From a virus, in the IMG/VR virus record IMGVR_UViG_3300042691_018254, positions 1 through 42,710 of that record: a DNA stretch of 42,710 nt; one strand, given 5' to 3'. The first letter of the stretch is position 1. The number at the start of each line of letters is the position of its first letter. Made by a program: the position numbers and the translations under genes. Shown here in pieces: positions 9,601-42,654 of the stretch. The notes beneath the pieces are model-generated. The model worked only from the letters and a program-made list of their open reading frames with translations. It had not been told where the DNA came from and searched no databases.

Positions 9601-12600
9601 AGTGCAGCCAAGTGGGCTCATTACGAGCAAGGGGATCTTGCCTACCGAGCAGGCAACTGGAATCAACTAGCGCCGGGTGCTAGTATTGAAATCTGCGAGT
9701 GGGTTGAAAGTTCGTTGAGTCCAACTGATTGGGCTAAGATAGCAGACACCACTGACGGATTATCGGCAGGTGTTTCTGGACAACCATTATACAGCAACAC
9801 TGCATATTCTATCAAGAGATTTACAAATCCTAATACAGGTTTGTCGTTTGGTACAAAATATTATTTCTGGGTCAAGAATAAAACAATCATTCCTAATAAT
9901 GTAATAGGTAGAAACATTTCAGCTGCTAGTGTTGCTAACTTAATTGAAAACCCTGCTAGCGATGGCACACCAATATTGGCCATCATTGACACCAATAAGT
10001 TTTTGACCTACAATTTAAGTTCGGTTATTACTGGCGACTCTGCGTTGATAAACATTGAATATTATAATTCAGAACGCAGACCTAATTCTACTCACACTGA
10101 ATATCAGTTGCTAACAGAAGGCATTGCAGACAGTCTACCAAGCGCTCCATTAGAGCAAAAATGGATTGACAGTCTTGTTGGATTTAATCAAGCAGGAAAT
10201 CCTGTTCCTGATCCTACGCTGTTAGCCAAGCAACGATACGGGCTAGCATTTAGACCTATTCAAACAATGTTTGTTGATCGGGGAACTGCACTAAAGATTG
10301 TGATTGACCGAAGTAATGCAATACTAGAGACTCAACCATTTGCAGATCTAATTGATTTTAAAAACTTAAATCAAATTGAAAACATTCCCAATGAAACTTT
10401 AAACTTATATGATATAGCAGTAGACACATTTGTTGAATTAGCAGAAGTAGGTATTGTTAGGATTAGTCCTGCAATTTTAAGTGCAAATATTGTTGATGGA
10501 GAAATTGACACTATTGATATTGTTGATCCCGGGTTTGGATATCGTACAATACCACCGGTTAAGATAGTCGGTGATGGGCTGGGAGCTAAGGCAACAGTTA
10601 CTATAGACCTCCAAGGCAGAATCACATCAGTTACAGTTGTACAGAAAGGTAGAAAATATACCACAGCCGATGTGTCAGTAAGAAACTTCTCAGTGTTGGT
10701 TAAAAATGACACAACCTATAATAACTATTGGTCTATCTATTTCTGGGACAGTGTTAGAGAAGGATTTTTCAAAAGCACTGTTCAATCTTATGATACAACC
10801 AAGTATTGGACTTATACTGATTGGTATGCCAACGGCTATAGTGCAGTGACTCGAATTGTAAAAGAAATTTTAGATCTTTATTTTGAACCTACTATTAAAA
10901 TAAAAGTAGGAGATGTTATCAAGATCAAAGAATATGCTAATGGTGGTTGGGCACTGCTAGAAAGAGTAACCGACGGTACTGGAGATATTCTTGGCAAATA
11001 CATTTTAGTTGGCCGCAAAAATGGAACAATTAAAATTAACGAATCAATTTACAATGTTAAAGTCTACGACTATCAAACATCTTACGACGAAGTAACATAC
11101 GACAACCAACCAACTCAAGAATTGAGATTTATTTTTGCCGCCCTAAAAGAAAATATCTTTGTTGACAATTTACGAGCAGAATGGAACAAGTTATTCTTTG
11201 CCAGCATTCGTTATATTTTCTCAGAACAATTGTATGTTGACTGGGCATTCAAAACCAGTTTCTTAAACGCTATTCATAATATTGGTGATTTAGAACAAAA
11301 AACAAACTACAAGAATGATAACTTATCAAGTTTTCAAAATTATCTAGAAGAAGTAAAACCTTTTAGAACAACTATTAGAGAATATACTAGTAGATACACC
11401 AACATTGATCGTCAAGGAGCAGCAATAACAGATTTTGATGTACCACCTGCGTACGATATTAGAGAAGGTAAAATACTTCCTGTACTAGAAAATTCTAGTA
11501 TTATTGACACATATCCTTACAAATGGTGGAAAGACAACCATACATATTCTATCACTGAAATTGTTATTTCTAATGCAGGCGCAGATTATAAAGATGCCCC
11601 TCGTGTTGTAATTACTGGCGACGGTACCGGAGCAAGTGCTCAGGCATATGTTGCTAACGGTGTTATTTCTGGAATCAAAATGTTAACTGCTGGTACAGGC
11701 TACACAACTGCATCAGTTAGTATTGTTGGCGGCAACGGTACATCTACTAACATTGCAAAAGCTGTGGCAATTATTGGCAATACTAAAACAAGAACTTTTG
11801 ATCTTACAGTTAAATTTGATAGAATTACCAAAGAAGGAACTTATGCAGAATACACCTACAGTCAAGAATTTATTGCCGACGGATTTACTGCAATCTTTGA
11901 ACTAAATTATCCCCCAACTCGAGATAAGACAAAAATTGCAGTCACGATTAACGATGAAATTATACTAGATAGCGAATATGAAATTACATTCTATAAATCT
12001 AGCACAGACGCATACAGTCTATTAAGAGGCAAACTAAAGTTAGTGTCTTTACCAGTTGCTGGCGCAACTATTGTAATTAATTACGAAAAAGCTGACGAAA
12101 TTTTAGAAGCAGTAGATAGGATTAACAAATACTATAGTCCATCTCGTGGCATGATTGGTAAAGAAATTAATCAGTTAATGACCGGTATAGACTTCGGTGG
12201 TGTACAAATTCAAGGAACTACATTTGATGTTTCGGGAGGCTGGGATGCACTTCCTTGGTTTACAGATACCTGGGATTCTGTAGAACCAAATGCAGATTTC
12301 TATTATGTTGTTGACAGTCAAACATATACACTAACAGGACTTGACAGTCGGTCACTGACATGGAAGGCAGGATCTGTAGTCAAATACGGAACTAAACAGT
12401 ATCGTGCGGTAATCGACAACACCGATAAACCACCAGTTGAATTTCCAGAAGTATGGGAAGAATTAACAATCTTGTTGCCGTTTACTCCAGCAGTAGGACA
12501 ACAACTATCGGTATACCTAAAACGAAACGGATTAGGAGCTCCTAGAAGCATTGACACATTGGATTCAGCCGGAGCTCCCGTAGTTGTTTATGATCAAGGG

Positions 12601-15009: not shown

Positions 15010-15012
15010 ATA
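15005..15012 (+). promoter_or_regulatory. Candidate T4-type late promoter core AATAAATA
   Basis: AATAAATA matches the T4 late consensus TATAAATA at seven of eight positions and overlaps the stop of the giant gene. A start about six bases downstream would fall near 15018, just past the ATG at 15017, and would favour the later in-frame ATG at 15047. In AT-rich DNA such octamers also arise by chance. Confidence 0.3.
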
Positions 15013-24245: not shown

Positions 24246-24625
24246 TGTATTATATAGTTATTGAAAACGGTGGAATTTCTAGCATATTAAATTATGAACC
24301 CAATGTGCCCGAAACCCACACTGTGGTAGAAATTACCGATGCAGAACATGAAAGTATTGTAACAGCTAAAACTCATTATTTTGATCTAATAGATAACACC
24401 GTTAAGTCCTATAGCCAGACCTACATAGATACAGAAGCAGCCAAAGAAACTCAACGAATCACAAATGCTGAAAAAAGAAAGTTTTTAGCAGACTCTGACT
24501 GGAAAGTCATGCGTCACTTTAGAGAAAAAGCTCTAGGACAACCTACTAGCCTGACCGATCAACAGTACCTAGACCTAGAACAATCTAGGGCAACGGCTGC
24601 GGCAGCAATAGTAGAAATCCAATAA
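24245..24625 (+). CDS. Tail fibre assembly chaperone-like protein
   Basis: A 126-residue protein starting at ATG 24245, which shares its A with the stop of the long fibre gene; an in-frame ATG four codons earlier is less likely. The C-terminal half (NAEKRKFLADSDWKVMRH, then GQPTSLTDQQYLDLEQSRA) has the pattern of phage tail fibre assembly chaperones (Caudo_TAP / T4 gp38-lambda Tfa type): an N--R--L--SDWK--R core followed by an LT--EY--L---R helix. The N-terminal half (YYIVIENGGISSILNY) is a small beta domain. Chaperones of this family usually fold the fibre encoded just upstream, which fits the coupled start. It is expected to be cytoplasmic and may remain bound to the fibre tip. Confidence 0.7.
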   Translation: MYYIVIENGGISSILNYEPNVPETHTVVEITDAEHESIVTAKTHYFDLIDNTVKSYSQTYIDTEAAKETQRITNAEKRKFLADSDWKVMRHFREKALGQPTSLTDQQYLDLEQSRATAAAAIVEIQ

Positions 24626-24628
24626 ATA
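24621..24628 (+). promoter_or_regulatory. Candidate T4-type late promoter core AATAAATA
   Basis: The same octamer as at 15005, again overlapping a stop codon, 24 bases before the start at 24652. A transcript starting about six bases downstream would carry the GGAG at 24641-24644, well placed for that start. One mismatch to TATAAATA. Confidence 0.35.
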
Positions 24629-29492: not shown

Positions 29493-29535
29493 CTCCTAAC
29501 ATAGCTGGTAAATAAACTGCTATGTTTATTAGGAG
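29493..29535 (+). promoter_or_regulatory. RNA hairpin that hides the ribosome site of the next gene, with late-promoter-like core in the loop
   Basis: CTCCTAA (29493-29499) pairs with TTAGGAG (29529-29535), and CATAGC (29500-29505) pairs with GCTATG (29519-29524). The result is a 13-pair stem with a four-base bulge and a 13-base loop. The 3' arm contains AGGAG, the only good ribosome site for the GTG start at 29541. There is no following T-run, so it is not an ordinary terminator. The loop holds TAAATA (29509-29514), the core of the T4 late promoter. A start about six bases later would make an RNA without the 5' arm and so with a free ribosome site. Confidence 0.6.
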
Positions 29536-29540
29536 ATTCC

Positions 29541-29891
29541 GTGGACGACAGATTATCTAAGGCTCTTGAGTTTGCCAATTATCGCCAGACTCTAGCCATA
29601 CAAAGAAAAACCCTTAAAGAAAAAATTGCTGCAAAGTTGACCTACGGCCATGCTGGTGGCCTATTCAAAATCAATCGTGAGCTTATTGTATTTGTACAGA
29701 TGCTGATTGATCAAGGTCGTGTAGAAAATGTGCCTTTTATTGATGAAAATGGAAATCCAGTACTGGTAGCTGATCTATACTCTTTTAAAGATGAAATCAT
29801 AGACAGGTACTTTACTGCTACCTATGAATACTATGAAGATTATCAAAAGATTAAATCTAGTAGAACAGTTGAAAAGTTATTGGAACTATGA
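29541..29891 (+). CDS. Conserved small phage protein of unknown function, first gene of the modification cassette
   Basis: A 116-residue, mostly helical protein (RLSKALEFANYRQTLAIQRK, LTYGHAGGLFKINREL, IDRYFTATYEYYEDYQKIK). It starts at GTG with AGGAG five bases upstream, inside the hairpin at 29493. Similar short proteins occur in T4-like aquatic phages, but I know no function. There is no membrane segment or catalytic motif; charged helices suggest a coiled-coil or adaptor protein. Its stop overlaps the next start (ATGA), so it is coupled to the glycosyltransferase-like gene downstream. It is also worth considering as a late regulatory or scaffold protein. Confidence 0.7.
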   Translation: MDDRLSKALEFANYRQTLAIQRKTLKEKIAAKLTYGHAGGLFKINRELIVFVQMLIDQGRVENVPFIDENGNPVLVADLYSFKDEIIDRYFTATYEYYEDYQKIKSSRTVEKLLEL

Positions 29892-30748
29892 CTCAAGGCG
29901 TACTAATATTTGCTCATAATAGTCCCAATGTTGACTACGGACTTATGGCCACAATTGCCGGCGGACTAGCCAAGAAGAATCTAGGTGTTCCTGTGAGTTT
30001 GGTTACAGATTCTGGTACATTAGCGTGGCTACAAGAGTCTGGTACAATCTCTAAAGCAAGAGATGTCTTTGATCAAATTATAGAAGTAGCTCGTCCTTAC
30101 ACTAAGAATGTAAGAAATTTACATGACGGATTTGAAAGCAAAGTTATTCCATTTATAAATTCAAATAGATACAGCGTGTGGGAACTTAGTCCTTATAATC
30201 AAACTCTGATGATAGACAGCGACTACCTAATTTTTTCCAACAAGTTAAATGAGTATTGGTCAGTAGATGCGCCAGTAATGATGGGGCACAGCATGACAGA
30301 CCTCACAGGTGAGCGCGGAGGTATTCTGGACAGTCGTGTCAGTGAAACCGGCATTCATATGTTCTGGGCCACAACAGTAATGTTTGACAAGAGTGCAGAA
30401 AGCGAGTTCTTTTTTAAACTGGTAGACTTTGTCAAAGACAACTATGTTTACTATGCAGATCTGTTCCGTTTTAATTCCAAGCAGTTTAGAAATGACATTG
30501 CTTTCAGTGTTGCTAAACACATCATGAATGGATTTGAAACTGAGTTTGCTTACACTCTACCACCTATTCTTACAGTATTTGACAAAGACATTTTACATAC
30601 AGTTGACGGCGACAGATTGACATTCCTAGTCAGCCAACCACATGATGTTGCAGATTTTTGGGCTGCTACAACCAAAGGTGCTGATGTTCATATTATGAAT
30701 AAACAAAGCATAATTAGAAATGCAGACAGTCTTCTGGAGTTAATATGA
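29888..30748 (+). CDS. GT-A-type glycosyltransferase-like protein 1
   Basis: A 286-residue protein. It opens with a beta-strand typical of GT-A nucleotide-sugar enzymes (QGVLIFAHNSPNVDYG). The metal-binding DxD motif is D110-S-D112 in LMIDSDYLIF, preceded by KNVRNLHDGFESK, a place where GT8-like enzymes keep a Lys/Asn near the donor site. MMGHSMTDL and TGIHMFWATTVMF follow, then a helical part to the C-terminus. Such enzymes move a sugar from a nucleotide donor to an acceptor; neither can be deduced here. There is no signal peptide, so it would act in the cytoplasm. The start overlaps the stop of the previous gene and the stop overlaps the next start, both by four bases. Confidence 0.65.
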   Translation: MTQGVLIFAHNSPNVDYGLMATIAGGLAKKNLGVPVSLVTDSGTLAWLQESGTISKARDVFDQIIEVARPYTKNVRNLHDGFESKVIPFINSNRYSVWELSPYNQTLMIDSDYLIFSNKLNEYWSVDAPVMMGHSMTDLTGERGGILDSRVSETGIHMFWATTVMFDKSAESEFFFKLVDFVKDNYVYYADLFRFNSKQFRNDIAFSVAKHIMNGFETEFAYTLPPILTVFDKDILHTVDGDRLTFLVSQPHDVADFWAATTKGADVHIMNKQSIIRNADSLLELI

Positions 30749-31581
30749 ATTTTGGATACCTAATATTTGTAGCAATCCATCCTGACATAGACTACCTTAA
30801 GTTGGCCTATGCCCTAGCCTTAAGCATTAAGAATACACAAAAGCCAGGATACGATCGAGTAGCATTAGTGATCAATGACAAAACACCAGTTGACGAGTTA
30901 GCTAGCCCTTGGGTATTTGATAAGGTTATAGAGTGGCCCGAACAAAAGTTCTGGGACGGCCGTTCGTGGATGGATCAAATAACACCTTGGGAACACACAG
31001 TTTGTCTAGATGCAGACATGCTGTTCCTTAGAGATTACAGTCACTGGATTGATTACTTTGTAGAAAATACAGATCTATATGTGGCCAACCGTGCGTTCAC
31101 ATTTAGAGGTGAAGTAATTACTAGTGATGCTTACCGTAAGGCATTTACCAAAAATGATTTACCTAACTTGTATTCGATGTGGACATTCTTCAAGAAAGAC
31201 TCGGGTAAAGAGTTTTTTGAATTAGCCCGACAAATTTTTATTAACCCACAGGAATTTAAAAACTTGTATCTAAACAATTATATTCCTAAAGTTGTAGGCA
31301 CAGATGAAGCATTTGCACTAGCAGCTAAGTTGTTAGATATTGATAGTGAAATAGCCTATGCTTTAGATTTTCCTAGGGTAGTACACCTAAAGCCCCAGGT
31401 ACAGAATTGGCCTTGGGACGCAGAGCGTGTGACTGATCAAGCAGGATTTTATCTCAAGGGTAATGGTAGTCTAAAGATTGGCAATTACCAGCAGACTGAC
31501 ATTGTGCATTATGTTGAAAAAGATATTATTACCGATGAACTAGTAAGTATGTTAGAGGAGATAGCATGGAAGAAAAACTAG
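30745..31581 (+). CDS. GT-A-type glycosyltransferase-like protein 2
   Basis: A 278-residue protein, a diverged relative of the preceding gene: GYLIFVAIHPDIDYLKLAYALALS at the start (shown by FGYLIFVAIHP), an Arg/Trp-rich stretch (DGRSWMDQITPWEH) and a DxD motif D89-A-D91 in VCLDADMLFL. The later segment VVGTDEAFALAAKL is the kind of acceptor-side Asp/Glu loop seen in GT8-like folds, and FPRVVHLKPQ...W supplies a conserved His. It is expected to be a soluble, metal-dependent sugar transferase; substrates are unknown. Having two different DxD proteins side by side suggests successive transfers rather than redundancy. Confidence 0.65.
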   Translation: MNFGYLIFVAIHPDIDYLKLAYALALSIKNTQKPGYDRVALVINDKTPVDELASPWVFDKVIEWPEQKFWDGRSWMDQITPWEHTVCLDADMLFLRDYSHWIDYFVENTDLYVANRAFTFRGEVITSDAYRKAFTKNDLPNLYSMWTFFKKDSGKEFFELARQIFINPQEFKNLYLNNYIPKVVGTDEAFALAAKLLDIDSEIAYALDFPRVVHLKPQVQNWPWDAERVTDQAGFYLKGNGSLKIGNYQQTDIVHYVEKDIITDELVSMLEEIAWKKN

Positions 31582-32162
31582 ACCTTGCTCCCTTTGACCA
31601 ATGGATAAAAACTGTAGAAGTTCCTGAAGAAACTTATTTCTTTGAGTTTGATCTTGACGGAAATGTCACAGCATTGCATCCAGGACCAGGCGTTGATCAT
31701 ATCAAAAACAAAATACAAATTGATCTCGATGTTGTGTTAGCTATATATGAAAGGGGTGAAACCCTACGCCACTACAAAGTGGATGTGATTTCTGGTAAAG
31801 TTATAAAAGTAAATCTTGACAGTATAACGGGACTTACTAAAATAGATGATGTACTACACAGAGTTATAGATAAACGTTGGATTAATGTTACTAAACCTGA
31901 TATTGCTATAGAATACAACAGAGAAGAATGTTTATTAACATTTAAGATTAATCCTTTGCTAAAAACTGTAGAATGGCAAGGAGACCAGGACATGATATTT
32001 TTAATAACAGAATATAATGATCCTAACGTGTTACAAGAAATGATTAGTTTTAATGTTAATGAATTAGTAAAGTATCCTCAAAGAATTAATATAAATCTTC
32101 CTAATAAATTTAGCATCTATACACGACGACTTTTTGACAACTACACATTTGAATATCTATGA
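31566..32162 (+). CDS. Unknown protein within the glycosyltransferase cassette (198 aa)
   Basis: No family recognised. Its start overlaps the previous gene by 16 bases, and GAGGAG just upstream gives a strong ribosome site. Its stop overlaps the next start by four bases. The sequence is acidic and beta-rich (YFFEFDLDGNVTALHPGPG, HYKVDVISGKVIKV, LLTFKINPLL), suggesting two small beta-sandwich domains joined near residue 110. There are no cysteine clusters, DxD or membrane segment. Its fixed position between GT-like genes suggests a binding or adaptor partner, perhaps for the acceptor. Confidence 0.6.
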   Translation: MEEKLDLAPFDQWIKTVEVPEETYFFEFDLDGNVTALHPGPGVDHIKNKIQIDLDVVLAIYERGETLRHYKVDVISGKVIKVNLDSITGLTKIDDVLHRVIDKRWINVTKPDIAIEYNREECLLTFKINPLLKTVEWQGDQDMIFLITEYNDPNVLQEMISFNVNELVKYPQRININLPNKFSIYTRRLFDNYTFEYL

Positions 32163-33052
32163 GAACAGTAGAATTTGACATTATCTTTCTTAGTTATGAT
32201 GAGCCTAATGCTGATCAGCACTATGCTGACCTATGTAATAAAGTACCTTGGGCCAAACGCATACACGGAGTAAAAGGTAGTGATGCTGCACATAAAGCCG
32301 CAGCAAGAGCCAGTGACACTGAGTGGTTTATCACTGTAGATGGCGATAACATTGTAGATCCAAAATTCTTTTCGCTTGATATTGATATGAGTAAACCTGA
32401 GATACAGGCATACGGTTGGTGCGGCCGCAACAGAATTAATGGATTAAGATACGGCAACGGTGGACTTAAGATCTGGCGGAAAGACTTTGTGTTGAATATG
32501 AAAACACACGAAGAAAGTACCAGCGATCGTGCCCAGGTTGATTTTTGTTGGGAAAATGGTTATAAAAATTTCCCTAAAGTCTATAGTGAAAGCATAATAA
32601 ATGGTAGTAAATTTCAAGCATGGAGAGCAGGGTTTCGTGAAGGTGTAAAAATGACACTGTTGGATGGTGTACGGGTTCCTGTTGACGAAATAAAACAGCG
32701 TATTTGGTGGCATAATTTACATAGATTAAAAATTTGGTCAACAGTGGGTGCTCACGAGGAACATGGTTCATATGCAATCCACGGAGCAAGATTAGGTCAA
32801 TGGATGGCCAACTGCACTGCTTGGAATTATGTTGATGTTAGAGACTTTGAAATATTAAAAAATATATATAACGAAAATGTCAATCATGACAATCTAGAGC
32901 AAGATATACAAGACTTAGGATACCGTATTAAAAAAGATATGGGTTTTGATTATCCCTATTTAAATGCACAACAAAGCAAGTACACGCTGGATATCTATGA
33001 TGAAGCCATAGACTTGGGTCTAACCTATTATGCGGTGGTAGAAAATGTATGA
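32159..33052 (+). CDS. GT-A-type glycosyltransferase-like protein 3
   Basis: A 297-residue protein. The N-terminus FDIIFLSYDEPNADQHY is followed by VPWAKRIHGVKGSDAAHKAA and the metal-site-like motif D61-G-D63 in FITVDGDNIVD, the usual layout of a GT-A (GT2-like) fold. RINGLRYGNGGLKIW is a conserved loop also present in the next gene, as are FQAWRAGFREGVKM and GSYAIHGARLGQWM. The two are paralogues over this domain. It is cytoplasmic by sequence. The C-terminal 70 residues are helical. I am sure of the fold class and kinship, less sure that it is an active transferase. Start and stop overlap neighbours by four and eight bases. Confidence 0.65.
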   Translation: MRTVEFDIIFLSYDEPNADQHYADLCNKVPWAKRIHGVKGSDAAHKAAARASDTEWFITVDGDNIVDPKFFSLDIDMSKPEIQAYGWCGRNRINGLRYGNGGLKIWRKDFVLNMKTHEESTSDRAQVDFCWENGYKNFPKVYSESIINGSKFQAWRAGFREGVKMTLLDGVRVPVDEIKQRIWWHNLHRLKIWSTVGAHEEHGSYAIHGARLGQWMANCTAWNYVDVRDFEILKNIYNENVNHDNLEQDIQDLGYRIKKDMGFDYPYLNAQQSKYTLDIYDEAIDLGLTYYAVVENV

Positions 33053-35030
33053 CATTTTTTATGTATCAAGAACGCAAGGCAATACTCAAGAATGGCAGTC
33101 AATAAAATCTAAGTACCCCACAGCACAACGACTGGTTAACATTAATTCTTATCAAGAAATAAAATCTAGATCTCTAACAAAAATGTTTTGGGTAATCTGG
33201 GACGATGTTAGACTGGAAGATTCATTTGACCTATTTAATTATCAAGTAACCAAATGGGACGACATGTATGTTCATGTTTTTAAAAATGGAGAACACCATG
33301 ATGGTGTTTGTTTATTTTCTAAAAAAAACACAATAAGTCAACGCGAATTTGATAATAGATTCTTTATAGACAAAAAAGAAATTGATATTGTTGCCAGTTA
33401 TCCAAGATCTTTTAAAACATATACTCCTTTAACATTTGAAGAATATCAACAGATCGAGGACGAAATGTTTTGGATAGTTTGGTCTGAAGTTTCCGTAATC
33501 GACTCGTCGGTATTTAATTTATATTTTAGTCATCACAACAGCTATGACCGTAGAGAAAATCATGTATTTAAAAATTTGTGTAACGATACGGAATCATATC
33601 TAAGCGGCATTATTCTTTGCAGCAAACACAAGCCGTTGTCTAAACGAGAATTTGATCGCAAGTATCTTGTAGATAAAAAAGAACACGATACTGTTGCTAG
33701 CAAATATAGATATCCTCAATATTTCCCTATGTCTTATACAGAGTATCTAGAAATTTGCAATAAAGAAACATCTTCTATGTTTTGGTGTGTGTGGCCTAAT
33801 ATTGAAATTGTAAACAAAAATATTTTTGATCTTTACTTTGATCCATTAGATGGAAAGTACGATTATGATCGAAGTATAAATCATATGTTTAAAAATTCTT
33901 GTAACGGAGTGGAATCTTATTTAAACGGTATTGTATTATTTTCAACCAAAAGCCCAATTACTGAACGAGAGTTTAATCGAAAGTATCTTGTAGATAAAAA
34001 AGAAATAGATGTAGTGGCCAGCAAATATTGTTACCCCAGTTATACTGTCAATTCCTACGATGAATACTTAGAGATTTGTAATAAAGAAACATCGTCTTTA
34101 TTCTGGTGCATATGGCCTGAAATAAACATTGTTGATGATCTTGTGTTTGATTTCTATTTTGATCCCTTAAACGGAAAGTATGATCAGGATAGAACAATGA
34201 ATCATACATTCATGCACAGATTTAATAATGTTGACATTCGTATTAACGGTCTAATGTTGTTATCTAAACATTGCATTATTAGCCGCAAAGAATTTAATCA
34301 TAGATTTTTAATTAACAAAAAAGAACACGATCGAGTGGCGTCAGAGCATTGTGTATATGATGTAGTGTTTATTTCTTACAATGAGCCCAACGCTGATGAT
34401 AATTATGAAAAATTATTAAAACACTGTTCTAGAGCAAAGCGTGTACACGGTATAAAAGGAATTCATGCCGCACATTTTAAAGCAGCTGAGATGTGTAACA
34501 CTGATATGATATGGGTTGTTGATGGCGATGCAATTATTGAAAATGATTTTAATTTTGATCTAGTGATGTCAAGTTATGATTTAGATTGTGTACATGTTTG
34601 GAAAAGTCGTAACCCCATAAACAATCTAGAGTACGGCAATGGCGGTGTAAAATTGTTGCCAAGGCAATTAACATTAAAAATGGATTTTAATACTCCGGAC
34701 ATGACCACTAGTATATCAAATAAATTTAAAGCTATGGATATGATATCAAATACCAATGCATTTAACACTGATGAGTTTTCTACCTGGCGTTCTGCATTTA
34801 GAGAATGTTGTAAATTGGCCAGCGGAATAATCGATAGACAATATCAAGAAGAAACTAAACTACGGTTAGATACATGGTGCTCTGTTGGAGTTGACAAATC
34901 TTTTGGTACATACGCAATTAACGGAGCGCAGGCAGGCAGATTGTACGGCGAAACTAATAAAAATAATCCAGAAGCTCTTAATAAAATTAATGACTTTGAC
35001 TGGCTACAGGAACAGTTTAATGGAATATAA
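33045..35030 (+). CDS. Repeat protein fused to a C-terminal GT-A-like domain (661 aa)
   Basis: Residues about 47-436 are four tandem units of roughly 95-107 residues. Each starts (M/L)FW--W, runs through F-LYFDP--GKYD, H-FKN-CN, G--L-SK and REF--(K/R)(Y/F)L-(D/N)KKE, and ends DxVAS, with starts near 47, 141, 245 and 352. The middle units are closest, so duplication is partly recent. Residues 437-661 are a GT-A-like domain paralogous to the preceding gene: VYDVVFISYNEPNADDNY, AKRVHGIKGIHAAH, D493-G-D495, LEYGNGGVKLLP, FSTWRSAFRECCK, YAINGAQAGRLYG. Within each repeat, W---W--(I/V)-I-(V/L)D aligns roughly with the WVVDGDAIIEN stretch, so the repeats may be worn-down GT-A cores without the metal motif. 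The catalytic domain would then sit on a chain of binding domains. Confidence 0.7.
   Translation: MYDIFYVSRTQGNTQEWQSIKSKYPTAQRLVNINSYQEIKSRSLTKMFWVIWDDVRLEDSFDLFNYQVTKWDDMYVHVFKNGEHHDGVCLFSKKNTISQREFDNRFFIDKKEIDIVASYPRSFKTYTPLTFEEYQQIEDEMFWIVWSEVSVIDSSVFNLYFSHHNSYDRRENHVFKNLCNDTESYLSGIILCSKHKPLSKREFDRKYLVDKKEHDTVASKYRYPQYFPMSYTEYLEICNKETSSMFWCVWPNIEIVNKNIFDLYFDPLDGKYDYDRSINHMFKNSCNGVESYLNGIVLFSTKSPITEREFNRKYLVDKKEIDVVASKYCYPSYTVNSYDEYLEICNKETSSLFWCIWPEINIVDDLVFDFYFDPLNGKYDQDRTMNHTFMHRFNNVDIRINGLMLLSKHCIISRKEFNHRFLINKKEHDRVASEHCVYDVVFISYNEPNADDNYEKLLKHCSRAKRVHGIKGIHAAHFKAAEMCNTDMIWVVDGDAIIENDFNFDLVMSSYDLDCVHVWKSRNPINNLEYGNGGVKLLPRQLTLKMDFNTPDMTTSISNKFKAMDMISNTNAFNTDEFSTWRSAFRECCKLASGIIDRQYQEETKLRLDTWCSVGVDKSFGTYAINGAQAGRLYGETNKNNPEALNKINDFDWLQEQFNGI
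33183..34350 (+). repeat. Four tandem ~95-107-codon protein repeats
   Basis: In-frame repeats beginning near 33183, 33465, 33777 and 34098. They are clear at protein level; at DNA level only short blocks match, such as those encoding LVDKKE and EYLEICNKETSS between units two and four. The first unit is shortest and most diverged. Confidence 0.85.
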
Positions 35031-36444
35031 CCGTAACATAAAAGGTAATGAACTTAAAGAGATTAACGGTAGATATGAATCTCGATATCTTGCCGACGCC
35101 GAACATGTATATAAAGAACTAAACAAAGTTAGCCCTAGTTTTTGTCTTGCTAAGTGGTATAATGTCAGTGTGCATATTCCTACAGGTAAGACCCATAGTT
35201 GTTATCATCCCAGGGCACATCACATACCATTAGACGAAGTAACGATTGATGTAAGTGCATTGCACAACACCAAGTATAAAAAAGATCAACGTAAACAAAT
35301 GCTTGAGGGAATTCGTCCTACAGAATGTAATTTTTGTTGGCAAATTGAAGACAGCGGTACCCAATTAAGTGACCGTGCATATCGTAGCAAGGATGTATAT
35401 GAGCCCGGTCTTATTGAAGAAGCACTTACTATTGAAAATCCCAATCCACGTTATGTAGAAGTAAACTTTAATCAAGCATGTAATTTTAAGTGTTCATATT
35501 GCAGTCCACATCTTAGTACAGCATGGCACAACGATATTCAAACTAACGGAGCCTTCATTTTAAAAGATAGGTGGCATAACGACATTAAATGGATGGAAAG
35601 TCTCAAGATTGATAATGGCCCATCTAATCCATACTTGATAGCCTTCTGGAAATGGTTACCGCAGATATATCCAACACTACATACATTCCGTATGACTGGT
35701 GGCGAACCGTTGATGGATAAAAACACCTTTAAAATGTTTGATTATGTACTCGAGCACCCTAAAGAGGACTTACACCTATCTATAACATCAAATTGCTGTC
35801 CGCCCGGAAATCAGTGGAATAAGTTCATGATATCATTGAAGAAAATCACTGAAAAAAATGCAATTGACCACTTTATGTTATTTTGCAGTTTAGACTCGTG
35901 GGGGGAACAGGCCGAATATATACGCAATGGCATGGATTTTAACATATTATACACCAATATAACTGACTATCTTCAAAATGGTAATAAACATAGTTTGACA
36001 TTTATTGTTACTTTTAATGCGTTGTCGTACACACGATTTTACGAATACATAGAAAATATTTTAAAATTACGCAAACAATTTAACAAAGGTAGACAATTAG
36101 TTTGGTTTGATGTACCACAGTTAATTGATCCAGATTTTTTGAATCCTAAATTACTGCCTCAATTAGTTACTGAGTTAGAACGCACAATCGAGTTTATGAA
36201 ATATAATCCAGAAACCAAATGGAACGAGTTTAAAGGATTTAGCGATTTTGAAATTAGCAAAATTCAAAGACTAATTGATTGGATTAAATCGGATACTGGA
36301 TTTAACAGTGAATTAGCCAAAGAGAATTTTTACTTATTTTTTAGCCAGCAAGACAAGCGTCAAGGCACAAATTTTTTAAATACATTTCCAGAGTTAGAAA
36401 CTTTTTGGAAAGAATGCGAGGCAAAATGCAAGAAAATAGAGTGA
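35020..36444 (+). CDS. Radical SAM enzyme with N-terminal twitch-type cysteine domain, 1
   Basis: The chosen start is ATG 35020 (474 aa), overlapping the previous gene by 11 bases, with AGGA about nine bases upstream. The frame extends further upstream, but only inside the neighbour's reading frame. C154-x3-C158-x2-C161 (CNFKCSYC) is the radical SAM 4Fe-4S motif, and RMTGGEPLM is the GGE SAM-binding motif. Ahead of it lie C42, C61 (SCYHP), C103 and C106 (CNFCW), spaced like an auxiliary cluster site and matching the N-terminal twitch layout of radical SAM proteins known in aquatic phages. The reaction would be a radical step started by 5'-deoxyadenosyl; the substrate is unknown. The C-terminal DKRQGTNFLNTFPE motif is shared with the next gene. 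Confidence 0.85.
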   Translation: MEYNRNIKGNELKEINGRYESRYLADAEHVYKELNKVSPSFCLAKWYNVSVHIPTGKTHSCYHPRAHHIPLDEVTIDVSALHNTKYKKDQRKQMLEGIRPTECNFCWQIEDSGTQLSDRAYRSKDVYEPGLIEEALTIENPNPRYVEVNFNQACNFKCSYCSPHLSTAWHNDIQTNGAFILKDRWHNDIKWMESLKIDNGPSNPYLIAFWKWLPQIYPTLHTFRMTGGEPLMDKNTFKMFDYVLEHPKEDLHLSITSNCCPPGNQWNKFMISLKKITEKNAIDHFMLFCSLDSWGEQAEYIRNGMDFNILYTNITDYLQNGNKHSLTFIVTFNALSYTRFYEYIENILKLRKQFNKGRQLVWFDVPQLIDPDFLNPKLLPQLVTELERTIEFMKYNPETKWNEFKGFSDFEISKIQRLIDWIKSDTGFNSELAKENFYLFFSQQDKRQGTNFLNTFPELETFWKECEAKCKKIE

Positions 36445-37787
36445 CGTTTATTAAAAACGTGAGAGATAGATTAAACCAAGTTGGTCCGGGATTCTGCGCA
36501 ATGAAATGGCTGCATCAAACTTTGTATCTACACACTGGGGATAACCATAGTTGTTATCATCCACGACCACATCACATTGGCTTAGATGAAATTGCTGTTG
36601 ATCCTAGTGCGTTGCACAACACTAAATGGAAAAAAGAACAGCGTAAGACCATGTTAGAAGGTGGTCGTCCTAATGAATGTCAATACTGTTGGAACATTGA
36701 AGACTTGCCAGGTGAACATATCAGCGATAGAATGATTCATAGTTCAAGTGATTTCTCAGAACCGTTAATTGAAAAACTAGCAGAATTACCTTGGGATGCT
36801 CCAGTTAATCCTCGTTACTTAGAAGTTAGTTTTGGTAACGGTTGTAATTATCGTTGCGGCTATTGCTGTCCACAAGCAAGTACTATGTGGACCGAAGAGA
36901 TTAAAAAGCATGGCAACTATGACTTGACCTACAATCAGTATGGTATTGAGTTTATGACCAACGGCACATACTATGGTCCCAAGGATGATAATCCTTATAT
37001 TGAGGCATTCTGGAAGTGGTGGCCAAGTTTAAAAAATGACTTGCACACTCTTCGTATTACTGGTGGTGAGCCTCTAATGAATCCTGGTGCAATGCAGTTT
37101 TTTGATTTGCTAGAAACAGAACCCAGCCCGCATTTGGAAATTACACTTAACAGTAATCTAGGTGTAACCTTTGATCGTGTTGACAGGCTTATTGAAAGAG
37201 TAACTAGTCTAGTTCGTCAAAAGAAGATTCGTAAGTTTAGTTTTTTTACCAGCATTGATAGTTGGGGCGAGCAAGCAGAGTATATGCGTACAGGACTGAA
37301 ATGTGATCACTGGGAACGCAATATGATAGAAGTAATCAAGGCAGGTGCTACTGTGAATTTAATGTGTACCTATAATGTCTTATGCGTTACTAACTTTCAA
37401 CAACTATTAGAAAAGGTAATCGAATGGCGGGAGAAGTTTGGATTTGAGTCAGTCTCTTTTGATACTCCTTACTTAAAAGAACCACCCCACTGGATGATTA
37501 ACATTCTCACAGACGATTTCATAGCACACCAAGAACGCCAACTACAATTTATTGTAGATAACAAAAAATGGTTTACAGATGTTGAGTATGAAAAAATGCT
37601 TCGTGTCACGGATTATATGAAAGAAAATCCAGTGAGCAAGGAAAAGATTCACGCAGGCAGAAGAGATTTTTATAGTTTTTTTAAAGAAAATGACAAGAGA
37701 TTGGGTACGCATTTGTTAAAGACATTTCCCGAGTACACAGAATTTTACAATCTGTGTAAACAAATTTACGAAAATTATGACAAATAA
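36426..37787 (+). CDS. Radical SAM enzyme with N-terminal twitch-type cysteine domain, 2
   Basis: A close paralogue of the preceding gene (453 aa from ATG 36426; ATG 36414 is possible). GAGG lies four bases before the start, and the overlap with the previous gene is 19 bases. N-terminal ligand candidates are C24, C43 (SCYHP), C85 and C88 (CQYCW). The radical SAM motif is C140-x3-C144-x2-C147 (CNYRCGYC) with an extra C148, and RITGGEPLM follows. SALHNTK, KK-QRK-MLEG-RP-EC and DSWGEQAEY are nearly the same in both proteins, so they arose by duplication, but the segments between cluster and GGE differ (GIEFMTNGTYYGPKDDNP here), suggesting different substrates. It ends DKRLGTHLLKTFPE. Cytoplasmic, and oxygen-sensitive by family. 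Confidence 0.85.
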   Translation: MQENRVTFIKNVRDRLNQVGPGFCAMKWLHQTLYLHTGDNHSCYHPRPHHIGLDEIAVDPSALHNTKWKKEQRKTMLEGGRPNECQYCWNIEDLPGEHISDRMIHSSSDFSEPLIEKLAELPWDAPVNPRYLEVSFGNGCNYRCGYCCPQASTMWTEEIKKHGNYDLTYNQYGIEFMTNGTYYGPKDDNPYIEAFWKWWPSLKNDLHTLRITGGEPLMNPGAMQFFDLLETEPSPHLEITLNSNLGVTFDRVDRLIERVTSLVRQKKIRKFSFFTSIDSWGEQAEYMRTGLKCDHWERNMIEVIKAGATVNLMCTYNVLCVTNFQQLLEKVIEWREKFGFESVSFDTPYLKEPPHWMINILTDDFIAHQERQLQFIVDNKKWFTDVEYEKMLRVTDYMKENPVSKEKIHAGRRDFYSFFKENDKRLGTHLLKTFPEYTEFYNLCKQIYENYDK

Positions 37788-38985
37788 ATCTACTTATTGT
37801 GTCAACCCGTACATGAATTTAAGTATTCATCCTAAAGGCATAGTTAAAACATGCTGTATGAGCACTCGAGAGTTGGCCACTGACTCGGGAGAGAATACTA
37901 TTAACAATGCTAGTATTTTGGAATTTTGGAATAGCAAAGATCGTCAACGAATGATCGACGACCTTAATAACGGAATTAAAATATCCGAGTGTACAGCATG
38001 TTGGCAAGAAGAAGATGCTGGAAAAGAAAGTAAACGCATTAGAGATAATAAAATACATGCTGATTCAATTACCGGAAATGATATGTTACCAGTAGTCATG
38101 GACCTAAGTATGGGAAATTTGTGTAATTTAAAATGCAGGATCTGCTCCCCAACACATTCCACTCCTTGGATGATCGAAGAAGCTGTTATATATTTTCCAA
38201 ACAATAAAAAAGAATATCTAGAACAACCTAGGTGGAAAACTGCTAAAGATAGTTTTGATTATGAAAATAAATTCTTATGGAATGATATTACTGCGTTGTT
38301 GCCCAATGTGACCAAGTTTGATTTTGCCGGCGGTGAACCCTTTTATATTGAAAAACACTGGAGCATTGTACGCAAATGTGTTGAGGAAGGATGGAGCAAA
38401 AATCAACACATTCATTACAATACCAACGGTACTATCTATCCAGAAAAGTATATAGATTTGCTGAATGAATTTAAAATAGTAGATATACAAATCAGTAGTG
38501 ATGGTGTTAGTAATAAATTTGAATATTGTCGACATCCAGCTGTTTGGCAAGAAGTAGAAGAAAATATTGACAAGTTTATTGCTGCAAAAAATAACAGCAA
38601 TACCGAATGGTTGTTGTCTGCTTGTATTTCTATTTCGGCATTTAATGTATATGATTTCTTTGAAACATACGAGCATTATGCCAGCAAGGGCATTGGTATA
38701 TATGTTAACATAGTGCATGATCATCACGGCACCAAAGTGATACCTCAAGAACTAAAACAAGTAATAATTAATAGACTCAATGCATTTGAATCTAAATACT
38801 TGCCACAGCAGTGGAAAAATGATAGAGACATGGTTGTCAACCATTTATCCAACACAACATCAAATAAACAAGAATGGGTCAAGTTCTGGACAGAACTTGA
38901 AATGCGGGATACTATTAGGAAAGAAAGTTTTAAAGAAACATTTCCTGAATACTTTGAAGAAATAAAAAATTTAATACAGGATTAA
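37777..38985 (+). CDS. Radical SAM enzyme with N-terminal twitch-type cysteine domain, 3
   Basis: A 402-residue protein that overlaps the previous gene by 11 bases. The N-terminal cysteine set is of the shorter type: C8 (YCVNPY), C26-C27 (KTCCMS), C72 and C75 (CTACW). The radical SAM motif is C116-x3-C120-x2-C123 (CNLKCRIC), and FAGGEPF is the GGE motif. VDIQISSDG and YCRHPAVWQEVEENID match the central barrel of twitch/SPASM relatives. It ends KESFKETFPEYFEE, the same TFPE tail seen in the two genes before. It is more distant from them than they are from each other. Family members act on peptides or small metabolites; no substrate can be assigned. Confidence 0.85.
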   Translation: MTNKSTYCVNPYMNLSIHPKGIVKTCCMSTRELATDSGENTINNASILEFWNSKDRQRMIDDLNNGIKISECTACWQEEDAGKESKRIRDNKIHADSITGNDMLPVVMDLSMGNLCNLKCRICSPTHSTPWMIEEAVIYFPNNKKEYLEQPRWKTAKDSFDYENKFLWNDITALLPNVTKFDFAGGEPFYIEKHWSIVRKCVEEGWSKNQHIHYNTNGTIYPEKYIDLLNEFKIVDIQISSDGVSNKFEYCRHPAVWQEVEENIDKFIAAKNNSNTEWLLSACISISAFNVYDFFETYEHYASKGIGIYVNIVHDHHGTKVIPQELKQVIINRLNAFESKYLPQQWKNDRDMVVNHLSNTTSNKQEWVKFWTELEMRDTIRKESFKETFPEYFEEIKNLIQD

Positions 38986-38986
38986 C

Positions 38987-40216
38987 ATGTGGAATGATAA
39001 AATAACTCAGGTACATTGGGAGCCAACAGACAAATGCAACAGTGCATGTCCAATGTGTCCAAGGTACGATTCACAAGGATTTGAAATAGGCACCCTAGAA
39101 AATGCCGAGTGGACTTTAGAAAGTTTTAAAAAAGCATGGCCCGTTGAGTTTATCGGAGATCTTCAAAAGATACTAGCTTGCGGTAACTACGGCGATCCCT
39201 GTGCGTGTAAAGAATTTGTAGACATATATGAATATGTTAGAGAAATCAACCCCCATATTAGTCTAGCTTGTAATACTAATGGTAGCTTGCGTAATCCTGC
39301 ATGGTGGGCTCGATTAGGTGCGGTCATGAAGGAAGAACAATGTCCCGGTAACTACTGTACATTCAGTCTTGACGGTCTAGAAGATACAAACCATCTATAT
39401 CGTAGAAATACCAATTGGAAAAAGATCATGGAGAATGCCAAGGCATTTATTGATGCTGGAGGTATAGCTCATTGGGACTATATTGTTTTTGAACATAATG
39501 AGCATCAAGTTGACGAAGCTAGACAACTAGCAATTGACATGGGCTTTAAGAATTTTAACATCAAGCGTACCACTCGTTGGGCAAGTTATAAAGGTGTATT
39601 TAAAAAGAAAGGCCAGTATCCAGTTTACTGGAAGGGCAAACATCTGTATGATTTAAAACAGCCAAACGAAGATCGTTTTAAAGAAAATTTTCAAGATGCA
39701 AATTACTTTAAACAAAGCAAGTATCAAAGTATTACCTTGAACGACTTTAAAAACATGACTGGAATTAAGAACAACGACCCCCGATTTGTAAATGGGAAAT
39801 GGGAACTTGTTGATCTTACATCACTTAATATCGCATGTCGATCAGTTGCAAATACTAGGGAACACCAACCGGCAAATGAGATATTTGTTAGTGCCGGGGG
39901 TCATGTTGCTCCGTGTTGCTTCCTAGGATCAGAACCTTTTGTTGATACAGCAGTTAAAGAACAAGATAAAAACTATATTAGCATGATTAATGCCCAAGGT
40001 GGTCTTCACAGACTCAACATGCATCAACAAAATATATATGATATTTTGCAATTAGATATGTTTCAAAAGTGGATTCCTGACACATGGGATAACAAAAACG
40101 GTAATACTTCAATGCGTCCTGCCAAATGCGGTCAGTGTTGTGGAGTTGAATTTAACGGATTAGACTTTGGCGAACTAGGCGACAAGAAAGATTCTTACAT
40201 TGGAAAAAACAAATGA
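38987..40216 (+). CDS. Radical SAM enzyme with SPASM-like C-terminal cysteines
   Basis: A 409-residue protein that differs in architecture from its four radical SAM neighbours. The radical SAM motif is at the very N-terminus (C17-x3-C21-x2-C24, CNSACPMC), and there is no N-terminal twitch domain. ACGNYGDP takes the place of the GGE motif. CTFSLDGL and NTNWKKIMENAKAFI follow the usual barrel. The C-terminal region has C284, C310-C311 (VAPCCF), C381, C384 and C385 (CGQCC), a SPASM/twitch-like set for one or two auxiliary clusters, as in enzymes that modify peptides (anSME, PqqE, MftC types). There is a one-base gap from the previous gene and CAGGA before the start. An auxiliary cluster is likely; the substrate is unknown. 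Confidence 0.8.
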   Translation: MWNDKITQVHWEPTDKCNSACPMCPRYDSQGFEIGTLENAEWTLESFKKAWPVEFIGDLQKILACGNYGDPCACKEFVDIYEYVREINPHISLACNTNGSLRNPAWWARLGAVMKEEQCPGNYCTFSLDGLEDTNHLYRRNTNWKKIMENAKAFIDAGGIAHWDYIVFEHNEHQVDEARQLAIDMGFKNFNIKRTTRWASYKGVFKKKGQYPVYWKGKHLYDLKQPNEDRFKENFQDANYFKQSKYQSITLNDFKNMTGIKNNDPRFVNGKWELVDLTSLNIACRSVANTREHQPANEIFVSAGGHVAPCCFLGSEPFVDTAVKEQDKNYISMINAQGGLHRLNMHQQNIYDILQLDMFQKWIPDTWDNKNGNTSMRPAKCGQCCGVEFNGLDFGELGDKKDSYIGKNK

Positions 40217-41418
40217 AAAAGAATAAGTTGTGTGTACTTCCTTTTAATAGTATTAGTGTCGATGCAAATGGACAATTTCGTGCATGTTGCAGTAGCGGAA
40301 GCAACGGTTTTAATTTATATGCTAAAAATCTTAGTGTAGAAGAGTTTATCAATAATAACAAAATTGTAAACTTGCGCGAAAGTTTCTTGGCCGGAGAAAA
40401 ACCTAGTACATGCGATCGATGCTGGAAAATAGAAGCCATGGGTAATTCTAGTTTTAGACACATTGCCAACGAAAAGAAAATACACGGTATAAAAGATAAT
40501 ACAGTTATCGAATTTAAGAGTCATATAGGTTTTGAAAATATACAGTATATTGATATTACACTGGGTAATAAATGTAATCTTGCTTGTCGAATGTGTAATC
40601 CTTTTAGCAGTTCTTTAGTTGCCAAGCAGTTGAATATTATCAGTAAATCAAATATTCATCAAGAAATCATAGAATTTGATAGAGCAACTAAGGACAAAAT
40701 TTTAGATACTATTAATAAATCAGTAAACCTTACATCTATATATATGTTAGGAGGTGAACCGTTAGTATCTGATTTTCATGACGAGATTGTTGACCTATTG
40801 ATTAATACCGGAAGAGCGTCAAAAATAACTTTACATTACAACACAAATCTGCAAATCGATGCTGAACGAAAATTAGCAGTATGGGAAAAATTTTGTTGTA
40901 TTGATCTAAGTATTAGCATAGACGGGCACGGAGACACTTATGAGTATATAAGATGGCCAGGCGTGTGGAACAAATTATATAAGAACATACAATTAGTTCT
41001 AGACTATGCAAAAGATAATAAAGATATTATTCCAGGAATTGCAACCACTGTGCAAAATTTAAATGTAGATAATTTAGATCAACTTATCGACAGTATGAAT
41101 ACTCTGTCCGATAACGCATTGAGTTTTTATTTTATACCGGTAGTACAGTCTTGCGAATTAGATATTATGCCCACACATGCACTAGAAGAGGCTTATCGTA
41201 ATTTAGAAAAATACAAAAATACCGATCTGCACAGAGCAAATGAATTATTAAATATGATCAGTAATGCAATTAAAAAATCTAAAACTGTAAATCCTACAAG
41301 AGTTCATAAATTCTTTGAAGATCAAAGAAAATATGATGAGACTCGAAAACAAAATTTATTCGAATTAAAACCTCATTTTACAGAATACGCAAAGCAATTT
41401 GGAATAACTACATGGTGA
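40213..41418 (+). CDS. Radical SAM enzyme with N-terminal twitch-type cysteine domain, 4
   Basis: A 401-residue protein that starts inside the stop of the previous gene (ATGA). N-terminal cysteines are C7 (LCVLPF), C25-C26 (RACCSS), C67 and C70 (CDRCW), the same short-type twitch layout as the gene at 37777. The radical SAM motif is C121-x3-C125-x2-C128 (CNLACRMC), with MLGGEPLV and IDLSISIDGHGDTYEYIRW downstream. It is closer to the 37777 protein than to the SCYHP pair. The C-terminus is helical and lacks the TFPE ending, reading FELKPHFTEYAKQ instead. Two twitch subtypes in one cassette suggest at least two kinds of step or acceptor. Confidence 0.85.
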   Translation: MKKNKLCVLPFNSISVDANGQFRACCSSGSNGFNLYAKNLSVEEFINNNKIVNLRESFLAGEKPSTCDRCWKIEAMGNSSFRHIANEKKIHGIKDNTVIEFKSHIGFENIQYIDITLGNKCNLACRMCNPFSSSLVAKQLNIISKSNIHQEIIEFDRATKDKILDTINKSVNLTSIYMLGGEPLVSDFHDEIVDLLINTGRASKITLHYNTNLQIDAERKLAVWEKFCCIDLSISIDGHGDTYEYIRWPGVWNKLYKNIQLVLDYAKDNKDIIPGIATTVQNLNVDNLDQLIDSMNTLSDNALSFYFIPVVQSCELDIMPTHALEEAYRNLEKYKNTDLHRANELLNMISNAIKKSKTVNPTRVHKFFEDQRKYDETRKQNLFELKPHFTEYAKQFGITTW

Positions 41419-42254
41419 AAATTAGTATTAAAGATACCCCATTTGATATAAAAAGAATTGTAGCATTTGGATGCAGTTTTACAGCTGGTACTGAAATATT
41501 AGACTACCAATTAAATCCTTATTTTGTAGATTTAAAAAACAAATTAGACGCATACCAATGGTGGGAAAAACTTAAAGAAGATATAGAGCAGATGGAGTTT
41601 CAGATGGAACTTCGAAAAAAAGAACTTAATCATTCATGGGCTGCTCATCTAGCTATTCAGTTAGGTGTTGATTTTATAAATTTTGCAGAACCTGGTAATA
41701 GCAATGAAAAAATGTATTGGCAGATAGAACAAAAATTAGAGTCAGGAGAAATTACCAATGACGATTTAGTTTTAGTTGGATTAACTGGAGCTCAGCGCTC
41801 TATGTTTTTTTCTAGTGATCATCCATTTCCAGTTTCTTTTATATTATCAAATACTGGAAGTTATGTAAACCAGTTATCGGAAAATATTCTAAAATGGTTT
41901 TCAGATGATAGAATTGTTTGGAATTATTATAGGGATTTAAAATCTTTTGAATCTGTTAAACAAAAATTACACGGTAAACTGTTTGTAGTACCCATGGAAG
42001 CTATTTGTAAAGAAGTGTGTCCTTATCCTAGCACATACTATTACGGCACATATCGTGCAGGATCACTTGAGAATGCTTTATTCTTTAATAAAATAATAAA
42101 TCAATTACATAATTCTCAATTGTTTGTAGATACAAATTGTTGTTTATACGATTATAGAACGAAAGAAACTACATTACCGCACGGGCACCTAAATGAGGAT
42201 GCTCATAGATCTTTTGCTGAACAGATTAGCAGAGAGCATATTGCTCTTAAATAA
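41412..42254 (+). CDS. SGNH/GDSL-type hydrolase-like protein
   Basis: A 280-residue protein. IVAFGCSFTAGTE holds the block I serine (S22), NFAEPGNSNEK has the GNS(N) element typical of SGNH blocks, DLVLVGLTGAQR follows, and the C-terminal LPHGHLNEDAHRSFAEQI supplies a candidate Asp263/His265 pair. The spacing D-A-H is shorter than the usual D-x-x-H, so the dyad is uncertain. An acidic helical insert (KLKEDIEQMEFQMELRKKEL) sits after the first block. SGNH enzymes remove or move acyl groups on sugars, lipids or polysaccharides; in a glycan cassette a sugar O-deacetylase or acyltransferase-like role is reasonable. There is no signal peptide. It overlaps the previous gene by seven bases and is the last gene of the co-directional run. 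Confidence 0.7.
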   Translation: MVKISIKDTPFDIKRIVAFGCSFTAGTEILDYQLNPYFVDLKNKLDAYQWWEKLKEDIEQMEFQMELRKKELNHSWAAHLAIQLGVDFINFAEPGNSNEKMYWQIEQKLESGEITNDDLVLVGLTGAQRSMFFSSDHPFPVSFILSNTGSYVNQLSENILKWFSDDRIVWNYYRDLKSFESVKQKLHGKLFVVPMEAICKEVCPYPSTYYYGTYRAGSLENALFFNKIINQLHNSQLFVDTNCCLYDYRTKETTLPHGHLNEDAHRSFAEQISREHIALK

Positions 42255-42348: not shown

Positions 42349-42654
42349 TTAGAATATATTTTTAGATGATTCTTGAATATCAGTTTTTAATCTTTCGATA
42401 TCCATCTGAAAATCCATTTTCTTAATATCGTTACGATATTCTTGAAAAATATTCAACAACTTGTCAGCAACTTCGTCTGAAGTTGAATTTGACAATTGCT
42501 CTTGAATGTTTATCTCCCATATTCGACCGTCGGCAAATTCCAACCGTAATTGATTTAGATATGCCACAGGCATGGTGTTCATGTAAAGATCTTCGAAGAT
42601 CTCTGGCCACTCACTAACCAAATGCCTGGGCGGTTTAAATAACGGTTTAGGCAC
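42349..42654 (-). CDS. Conserved small phage protein of unknown function
   Basis: A 101-residue protein starting at GTG (complement 42652-42654). The N-terminus PKPLFKPPRHLVSEWPEIFED and YMNTMPVAYLNQLRLEF, with DGRIWEINIQEQL, look like a conserved T4-like aquatic phage protein, but I know no function. The C-terminal 50 residues are helical and charged (EYRNDIKKMDFQMDIERLK). The start overlaps the stop of the upstream minus-strand gene by eight bases, which supports the GTG start over the internal ATGs. It is the first of a minus-strand transcription unit that converges on the cassette. Confidence 0.7.
   Translation of the reverse strand: MPKPLFKPPRHLVSEWPEIFEDLYMNTMPVAYLNQLRLEFADGRIWEINIQEQLSNSTSDEVADKLLNIFQEYRNDIKKMDFQMDIERLKTDIQESSKNIF

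Follow-up and report, generated by a model that had tools for sequence, protein, structure and literature searches.

A probable late operon joining glycosyltransferase and radical SAM genes in uncultured T4-like phages

Gene clusters rich in radical S-adenosylmethionine (rSAM) enzymes have been described in several phages. Interchangeable modules of five rSAM genes were reported in 2010 from the T4-like Campylobacter phages CP220 and CPt10, where such phage clusters were termed highly unusual and no function was given (PMC2853527). A T4-like marine genome carries 12 rSAM genes (PMC5332604), and the sections of PMC7029224 used here describe cassettes of glycosyltransferase (GT) and rSAM genes in the host recognition cluster of pelagimyophages, an island located between VrlC and the neck gene gp14. 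The locus presented in this study lies on the IMG/VR virus record IMGVR_UViG_3300042691_018254. This record, which is classed as linear and is probably a fragment, was analysed over its whole length of 42,710 bp and is referred to as the window. Twelve plus-strand genes (g1-g12) make up the locus: a GT8-like pair (g2/g3), a GT2-like pair (g5/g6), two unknowns (g1 and g4), five rSAM genes (g7-g11) and a gene with a weak SGNH match (g12). They form a real and conserved unit that is probably late and glycan-related. Our best explanation, which is a tentative one, is that a T4-like phage uses one late operon to synthesise a glycan in the cytosol and to tailor it by radical chemistry, with a virion protein as the most likely acceptor.

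According to open reading frame (ORF) and start-codon analysis, the twelve genes fill positions 29541-42254. Successive overlaps from g1 to g9 are 4, 4, 16, 4, 8, 11, 19 and 11 bp, g9 and g10 are separated by a 1 bp gap, and the last two overlaps are 4 and 7 bp. This confirms the packing that the initial annotation of the window had described, with all genes on the same strand and overlapping by 4-19 bp or 1 bp apart. Five scans of viral contigs returned about 260 loci, from which redundancy was removed, and about 100 loci with at least four cassette hits were kept. Most of these non-redundant IMG/VR loci share the core order g1-g2-g3-g4-g5-g6-rSAM. Downstream of it comes a variable tail made up of rSAMs, SGNHs and sugar enzymes, after which many loci have a conserved minus-strand block. 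The gene right after g6 is an rSAM in 95 of 104 cases, a set that includes loci fetched by rSAM queries. To limit circularity, a further count was confined to loci retrieved by g4 or g5 queries and having 6 kb or more of downstream sequence; 35 of these 38 loci carry an rSAM gene at most 10 genes from g5. Gene order is thus conserved, and scattered homologues without co-occurrence were not seen. The cassette is nevertheless not a fixed set of twelve genes, as had been assumed, and consists instead of a core and a swappable tail.

The motif TAAATA occurs at most 60 nt upstream of g1 in 88 of 93 non-redundant loci and in none of 417 cases upstream of g2-g5, against a background of 2.1% of random coding windows. 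The corresponding counts are 3/106 for g6, 3/68 for g7, 1/50 for g9, 3/44 for g10, 0/42 for g11 and 1/15 for g12. By analogy with the T4 consensus, the copy before g1 is presumed to be a T4-type late promoter and, since no copy precedes g2-g5, g1-g12 probably form one late operon. Together with the synteny of about 100 loci, this distribution places the layout beyond chance. Before g8 the motif is present in 30 of 111 loci, at a distance of 43 or 45 nt in 18, 27 nt in 8, 39 nt in 3 and 22 nt in 1. A second promoter at this position was set aside because the motif falls within the coding end of g7 in the six examples inspected (position 36377 in the window), although it could be a real promoter in some loci. 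Within the window, TAAATA (24 vs 69.6 expected) and ATAAATA (2 vs 21.3 expected) are both rarer than chance, and before g1 the sequence reads GTAAATA, not ATAAATA. The only two copies of ATAAATA (15006-15012 and 24622-24628) each lie shortly before a gene start (15017 and 24652, respectively). Scans of the window for sigma-70 promoters and terminators gave results near chance level.

The promoter motif also bears on a role in DNA hypermodification, in which the GTs and rSAM enzymes would modify the bases of phage DNA. T4 glucosyltransferases modify phage DNA bases, and relatives carry a QueE-like gene in the adjoining minus-strand block. The late motif, however, is found on the operon and not on the QueE-like cluster (0/15), and no match to a DNA glucosyltransferase was found for g2, g3, g5 or g6, which leaves this explanation highly improbable.

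In two contigs, a g6-type GT domain is fused in frame with a twitch rSAM (L130, 964 aa, and L137, 643 aa). The two were found on different records, and their rSAM portions share 84% identity. A third fusion, in L087, was dropped: relative to L103 its poly-A run is longer by a single A, and the fusion probably reflects a frameshift or an assembly error. The initial annotation had argued for one process on the basis of tight coupling, and this is now supported by the conserved order, the proximity of rSAM genes to g5 and g6, the single late motif and the recurrent fusion. Fusions were also observed for other members of the cassette. In six related loci, g12-like SGNH domains form the C-terminal parts of larger proteins, joined to DUF6492 or to an unassigned domain; the N-terminal part of one of these (L068) matches DUF6492 and gave no alignment to the g3 profile. 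Two further proteins, of 817 aa (L189) and 825 aa (L241), contain two twitch rSAM domains in tandem.

Comparison of the DNA of the window with that of related loci reveals a mosaic structure. Against the L162/L027-type loci, identity is 86-88% through g5, 78-80% over g6-g8 and 91% beyond the operon, and g9-g12 have no counterpart there between the conserved flanks. For the L001-type loci, the values are 66-71% in g2-g5 and 81% in g8-g12, and the flank gives no match. This pattern fits an exchange of the downstream part (g9-g12) by recombination. In relatives, the same slot contains genes for an NDP-sugar (nucleoside diphosphate sugar) epimerase, a UDP-glucose/GDP-mannose dehydrogenase, a carbamoyltransferase, a B12-binding rSAM and a 2-oxoglutarate-Fe oxygenase. 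The presence of sugar-nucleotide and carbamoyl enzymes in this slot, in addition to the two GT pairs, supports a glycan setting for the operon. The coordinates of the individual features are given in Table 1.

Table 1. Features of the operon and its borders in the window, with the basis of each assignment.
Feature	Position	Strand	Basis
TAAATA core, presumed T4-type late promoter	29509..29514	+	26 bp before g1 start codon
g1, 116 aa, unknown, GTG start	29541..29891	+	ORF; first in order across syntenic loci
g2, GT8-like GT-A glycosyltransferase	29888..30748	+	D110/D112, H268/K272; weak glycogenin profile match; homology to g3
g3, GT8-like GT-A glycosyltransferase	30745..31581	+	D89/D91, H214/K216; weak glycogenin match
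g4, 198 aa, unknown, mostly beta	31566..32162	+	Slot between g3 and g5; 56-sequence alignment
g5, GT2-like GT-A glycosyltransferase	32159..33052	+	Homology to g6 C-terminal domain; VDGDN motif
g6, four degenerate GT-A-like repeats and C-terminal GT-A domain	33045..35030	+	AlphaFold2 (AF2) model, Foldseek
g7, rSAM, N-terminal twitch	35020..36444	+	NF033640, 304.8 bits
g8, rSAM, N-terminal twitch	36426..37787	+	NF033640, 295.1 bits
g9, rSAM, N-terminal twitch/SPASM	37777..38985	+	NF033640, 283.8 bits
g10, rSAM, C-terminal SPASM-like domain	38987..40216	+	PF04055, 38.3 bits
g11, rSAM, N-terminal twitch	40213..41418	+	NF033640, 274.6 bits
g12, SGNH/GDSL-like protein	41412..42254	+	PF00657, 21.0 bits, sub-threshold
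Start of convergent minus-strand block bounding the operon	42349..42582	-	DNA beyond 42255 91% identical to L162

None of the four GT candidates has a Pfam match above cut-off. The g2 and g3 proteins are homologous (E 2e-24), and their best PDB profile match is the GT8 enzyme glycogenin, with weak E-values (0.03 and 0.023, respectively). Both aspartates and the H268/K272 pair of g2 are invariant in its alignment, as are D91 and H214/K216 in that of g3, where D89 is conserved in at least 90% of the sequences. The second pair is related through g5 and the C-terminal domain of g6 (profile-profile E 8e-46). In the VDGDN motif of g5, D61 is invariant and D63 nearly so, while the DxD motif of g6 (D493/D495) is invariant. 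The AF2 model of g6 (predicted local distance difference test score, pLDDT, 90) shows four tandem degenerate repeats (approximately aa 1-434) followed by a GT-A domain, and a hidden Markov model of the repeats matches this domain with an E-value of 2e-6. All four repeats (33045-34346 in the window) lack the DxD motif of the C-terminal domain, and repeats 3 and 4 share 57% identity. The best Foldseek matches of g6 are glycosyltransferases (best E 1e-5), with low template modelling (TM) scores. The GT-A fold with a DxD motif is thus assigned to g6 by its predicted fold and to g5 by homology to g6. As for the unknowns, g1 has no match above threshold among PHROG, Pfam or phage records, and the AF2 model of g4 (pLDDT 80, predicted TM-score 0.49) gave no significant match in a fold search against the PDB.

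All five rSAM proteins contain the CxxxCxxC [4Fe-4S] motif and a GGEP or GDP motif. The cysteine motif starts at residue 154 in g7, which has GGEP at 227 and N-terminal cysteines at 42, 61, 103 and 106, and at residue 140 in g8. It is kept in nearly all well-covered homologues (166/166 for g7, 220/221 for g8, 129/129 for g9, 104/104 for g10 and 53/53 for g11). Four of the proteins, g7, g8, g9 and g11, exceed the 170-bit cut-off of the NCBIfam model NF033640 for N-terminal twitch rSAMs (Table 1), and g8-g11 pass that of the Pfam Radical_SAM family PF04055, for which g7 scores lower (20.6 vs 29.5 bits). With 38.1 bits against NF033640, g10 is an rSAM of another subfamily, and it has a weak C-terminal SPASM match (15.0 vs 21.5 bits). 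A SPASM domain (PF13186, 26.4 bits) was detected at aa 8-76 of g9. Viperin models were not matched, as g7-g9 score 20.8-24.3 bits against a cut-off of 180, and the PADLOC pVip models gave 21.6-28.5 bits. The GDSL match of g12 is below the PF00657 cut-off of 23.6 bits, and a GCSFT block is visible by eye in its sequence. The family assignments of the initial annotation thus hold for the five rSAMs and for the GT-A proteins g5 and g6, while the GT8 match of g2/g3 is weak (E 0.02-0.03) and the SGNH match of g12 sub-threshold.

Twitch/SPASM rSAMs commonly modify peptides, which raises the question of whether peptide modification is the main function. The rSAMs would then act on a virion protein or a small peptide by cross-linking or epimerisation, in a manner similar to ribosomally synthesized and post-translationally modified peptides (RiPPs), and the GTs would glycosylate it. 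The peptide S-glycosyltransferase SunS is indeed among the fold matches of g6, but these matches span many GT types, and the sugar enzymes of relatives point to glycans. Moreover, the packed genes leave no room between them for a free plus-strand ORF coding for a RiPP precursor, although such a precursor could be encoded elsewhere. We consider this explanation improbable.

The choice of target is informed by the surroundings of the operon and by the absence of membrane proteins. Upstream lie baseplate and tail-fibre-like genes, as indicated by PHROG matches. No membrane segments were predicted in g1-g12, where no 19-residue hydropathy peak exceeds 1.34. In relatives, 1137 plus-strand genes surrounding the core were scanned as well, and the membrane threshold is exceeded only by a single desaturase, present in three copies. 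A virion target is favoured because of the late timing, the adjacency to tail-fibre genes and the absence of membrane proteins. Its close rival is the remodelling of host-surface glycans, in which lipopolysaccharide (LPS) or capsule would be altered late in infection, blocking superinfection or the re-adsorption of progeny to debris. This is the published reading of the GT islands of pelagimyophages (in the sections used of PMC7029224) and jumbo cyanophages (PMC7824862). The sugar-nucleotide and carbamoyl enzymes of relatives are compatible with it, and related GT and rSAM genes occur near further GT2-like genes in a Bdellovibrionota locus (L298). On the other hand, the hydropathy scan revealed no membrane flippase, polymerase, ligase or membrane GT in the operon, the slot contains almost no membrane proteins, the promoter motif is late and not early, and the neighbours are tail-fibre genes. 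Host-surface remodelling therefore seems possible, if somewhat unlikely. Of the initial proposal that a glycan is assembled and then altered by radical chemistry, the glycan setting is supported by the GT pairs and by the sugar enzymes of relatives; as to virion or host surface, which it had named side by side, we lean cautiously towards the former.

For the synthesis and tailoring of a virion glycan, the following sequence of events can be proposed. In the cytosol, g2 and g3 together with g5 and g6 would build a short glycan on the acceptor, probably a tail fibre or some other outer protein whose gene lies directly upstream; the degenerate repeats of g6 could serve as a scaffold or acceptor-binding arm. 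The twitch/SPASM rSAMs g7-g11 would then alter the sugars or the glycosylated peptide by radical chemistry, and g12 may add or remove an acyl group. Exchange of the downstream half would cause the chemistry to differ between close relatives, with selection probably acting at the phage-host surface. What the sequences show directly is the gene order, the conserved late-promoter motif, the intact rSAM and GT motifs, the recurrent fusion, the mosaic pattern and the lack of predicted membrane segments; the substrates, the order of the steps and the virion as target are all inferred. In a more specific version, which appears rather unlikely, the tail fibres of the phage itself are glycosylated after translation and the resulting glycopeptide is edited by radical chemistry (with the fused GT-rSAM proteins of some relatives), as a swappable change in receptor recognition.

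Several points weigh against a virion glycan. LPS synthesis, too, typically involves GT8-like and GT2-like enzymes, and twitch/SPASM rSAMs are able to act on peptides, sugars or small molecules. The SGNH match of g12 is weak. As the window is a fragment of 42.7 kb, membrane partners could be encoded elsewhere in the genome, and export could be carried out by host genes. The loci are related to each other, so that the locus counts are not independent, and, as mentioned above, comparable islands have been read in print as agents of host-surface change.

One of the relatives, on a record of 281,658 bp, contains a second rSAM-rich island (L273/L274, G001:C1 222000-261999) with many rSAMs, an NDP-sugar dehydratase-like gene, an SGNH-like gene and a KedN5-like B12-binding rSAM, which looks like a biosynthetic cluster. 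This resemblance speaks for the production of a diffusible small molecule aiding the infected host or harming competitors, as has been proposed for a second cluster of jumbo cyanophages (PMC7824862). The late timing and tail-fibre adjacency of the operon give no reason for such a product, however, and no transporter-like membrane protein is present in it, which makes this option quite improbable.

The relatives on longer records are T4-like, as the gp23 major capsid family was matched in four of the five records searched. Among 50,697 cultured-phage records, searched with eight protein queries (g1, g5, two divergent g5 relatives, the g6 GT domain, g7, g10 and g11), no match was found for g1, g5, the g5 relatives or the g6 GT domain; these negatives cover the queried proteins, with g2, g3, g4, g8, g9 and g12 outside the search. 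For g7, g10 and g11, only distant rSAM matches were obtained, in Vibrio, Campylobacter, Pelagibacter and one marine phage. In a genome collection, the phage order g1-g2-g3-x-g5-rSAM is preserved around those g5 relatives whose contigs had been binned with marine bacteria. Those in Bdellovibrionota contigs mostly have an rSAM nearby, and some have g6-like genes. As in the phages, g5-like, g6-like, twitch rSAM and g10-like rSAM genes are found close together in Bdellovibrionota loci, but these are bacterial contigs, and their g6-like proteins (225-229 aa) are too short to contain the repeats. The g5 relatives of Rhodobacteraceae are without rSAM neighbours; six loci (L286-L288, L290, L292 and L293; Rhodobacteraceae, Roseibium) contain a single g5-like gene with no rSAM beside it, at a similar site in several. 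Elsewhere in the window, a single ORF of 4,789 aa (640-15009) lies between baseplate wedge-like and tail-fibre genes, and a tRNA scan of the window found none.

If confirmed, the glycosylation of tail fibres followed by radical editing would represent a new type of protein modification in viruses. In many uncultured phages, rSAM clusters are tied to two GT pairs beside tail-fibre genes by gene order, one late motif and fusion, and the open puzzle of phage rSAM clusters is thereby turned into a testable claim, namely late glycan modification at the phage-host surface.

The suggestion in the initial annotation that no pathway of this composition had been described was too strong, given the five-rSAM modules of CP220/CPt10 (PMC2853527) and the GT and rSAM cassettes of pelagimyophages (PMC7029224, sections used). 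The former are likewise found in T4-like phages, as clusters of 10-12 genes with five rSAMs that are swapped wholesale between relatives (PMC2853527), and the operon similarly has five rSAMs, with g9-g12 absent from its nearest relative between conserved flanks. The CP220 record also has two NDP-sugar-transferase-like genes annotated in the module, near a baseplate lysozyme gene. It differs in that three of its rSAMs match only the g10-type profile, and weakly (57-66 bits), and no other gene of the module matches the g2, g3, g5 or g6 profiles. A glycine amidinotransferase is part of the CP220/CPt10 cluster, whereas none was found by Pfam among g1-g12. The pelagimyophage cluster is likewise a hypervariable island of T4-like aquatic phages with tail fibres, GTs (GT8 being prominent) and rSAM cassettes, but the sections used of PMC7029224 do not mention the core order from g1 to g6 and rSAM, a GT-rSAM fusion or a single late promoter. 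Jumbo cyanophages such as P-SSM2 share GT clusters with sugar-modifying enzymes, which have been read as a means of surface polysaccharide diversification, while the term radical SAM is absent from the main text of that work (PMC7824862). Aeromonas phage 332-Vera resembles the window by its description, in that eight rSAM genes lie within its structural cluster of baseplate and tail-fibre genes; it belongs, however, to the Chimallinviridae and is not T4-like, and "glycosyl" does not occur in the text (PMC12390700). Clusters of several rSAM genes have therefore already been published for T4-like phages.

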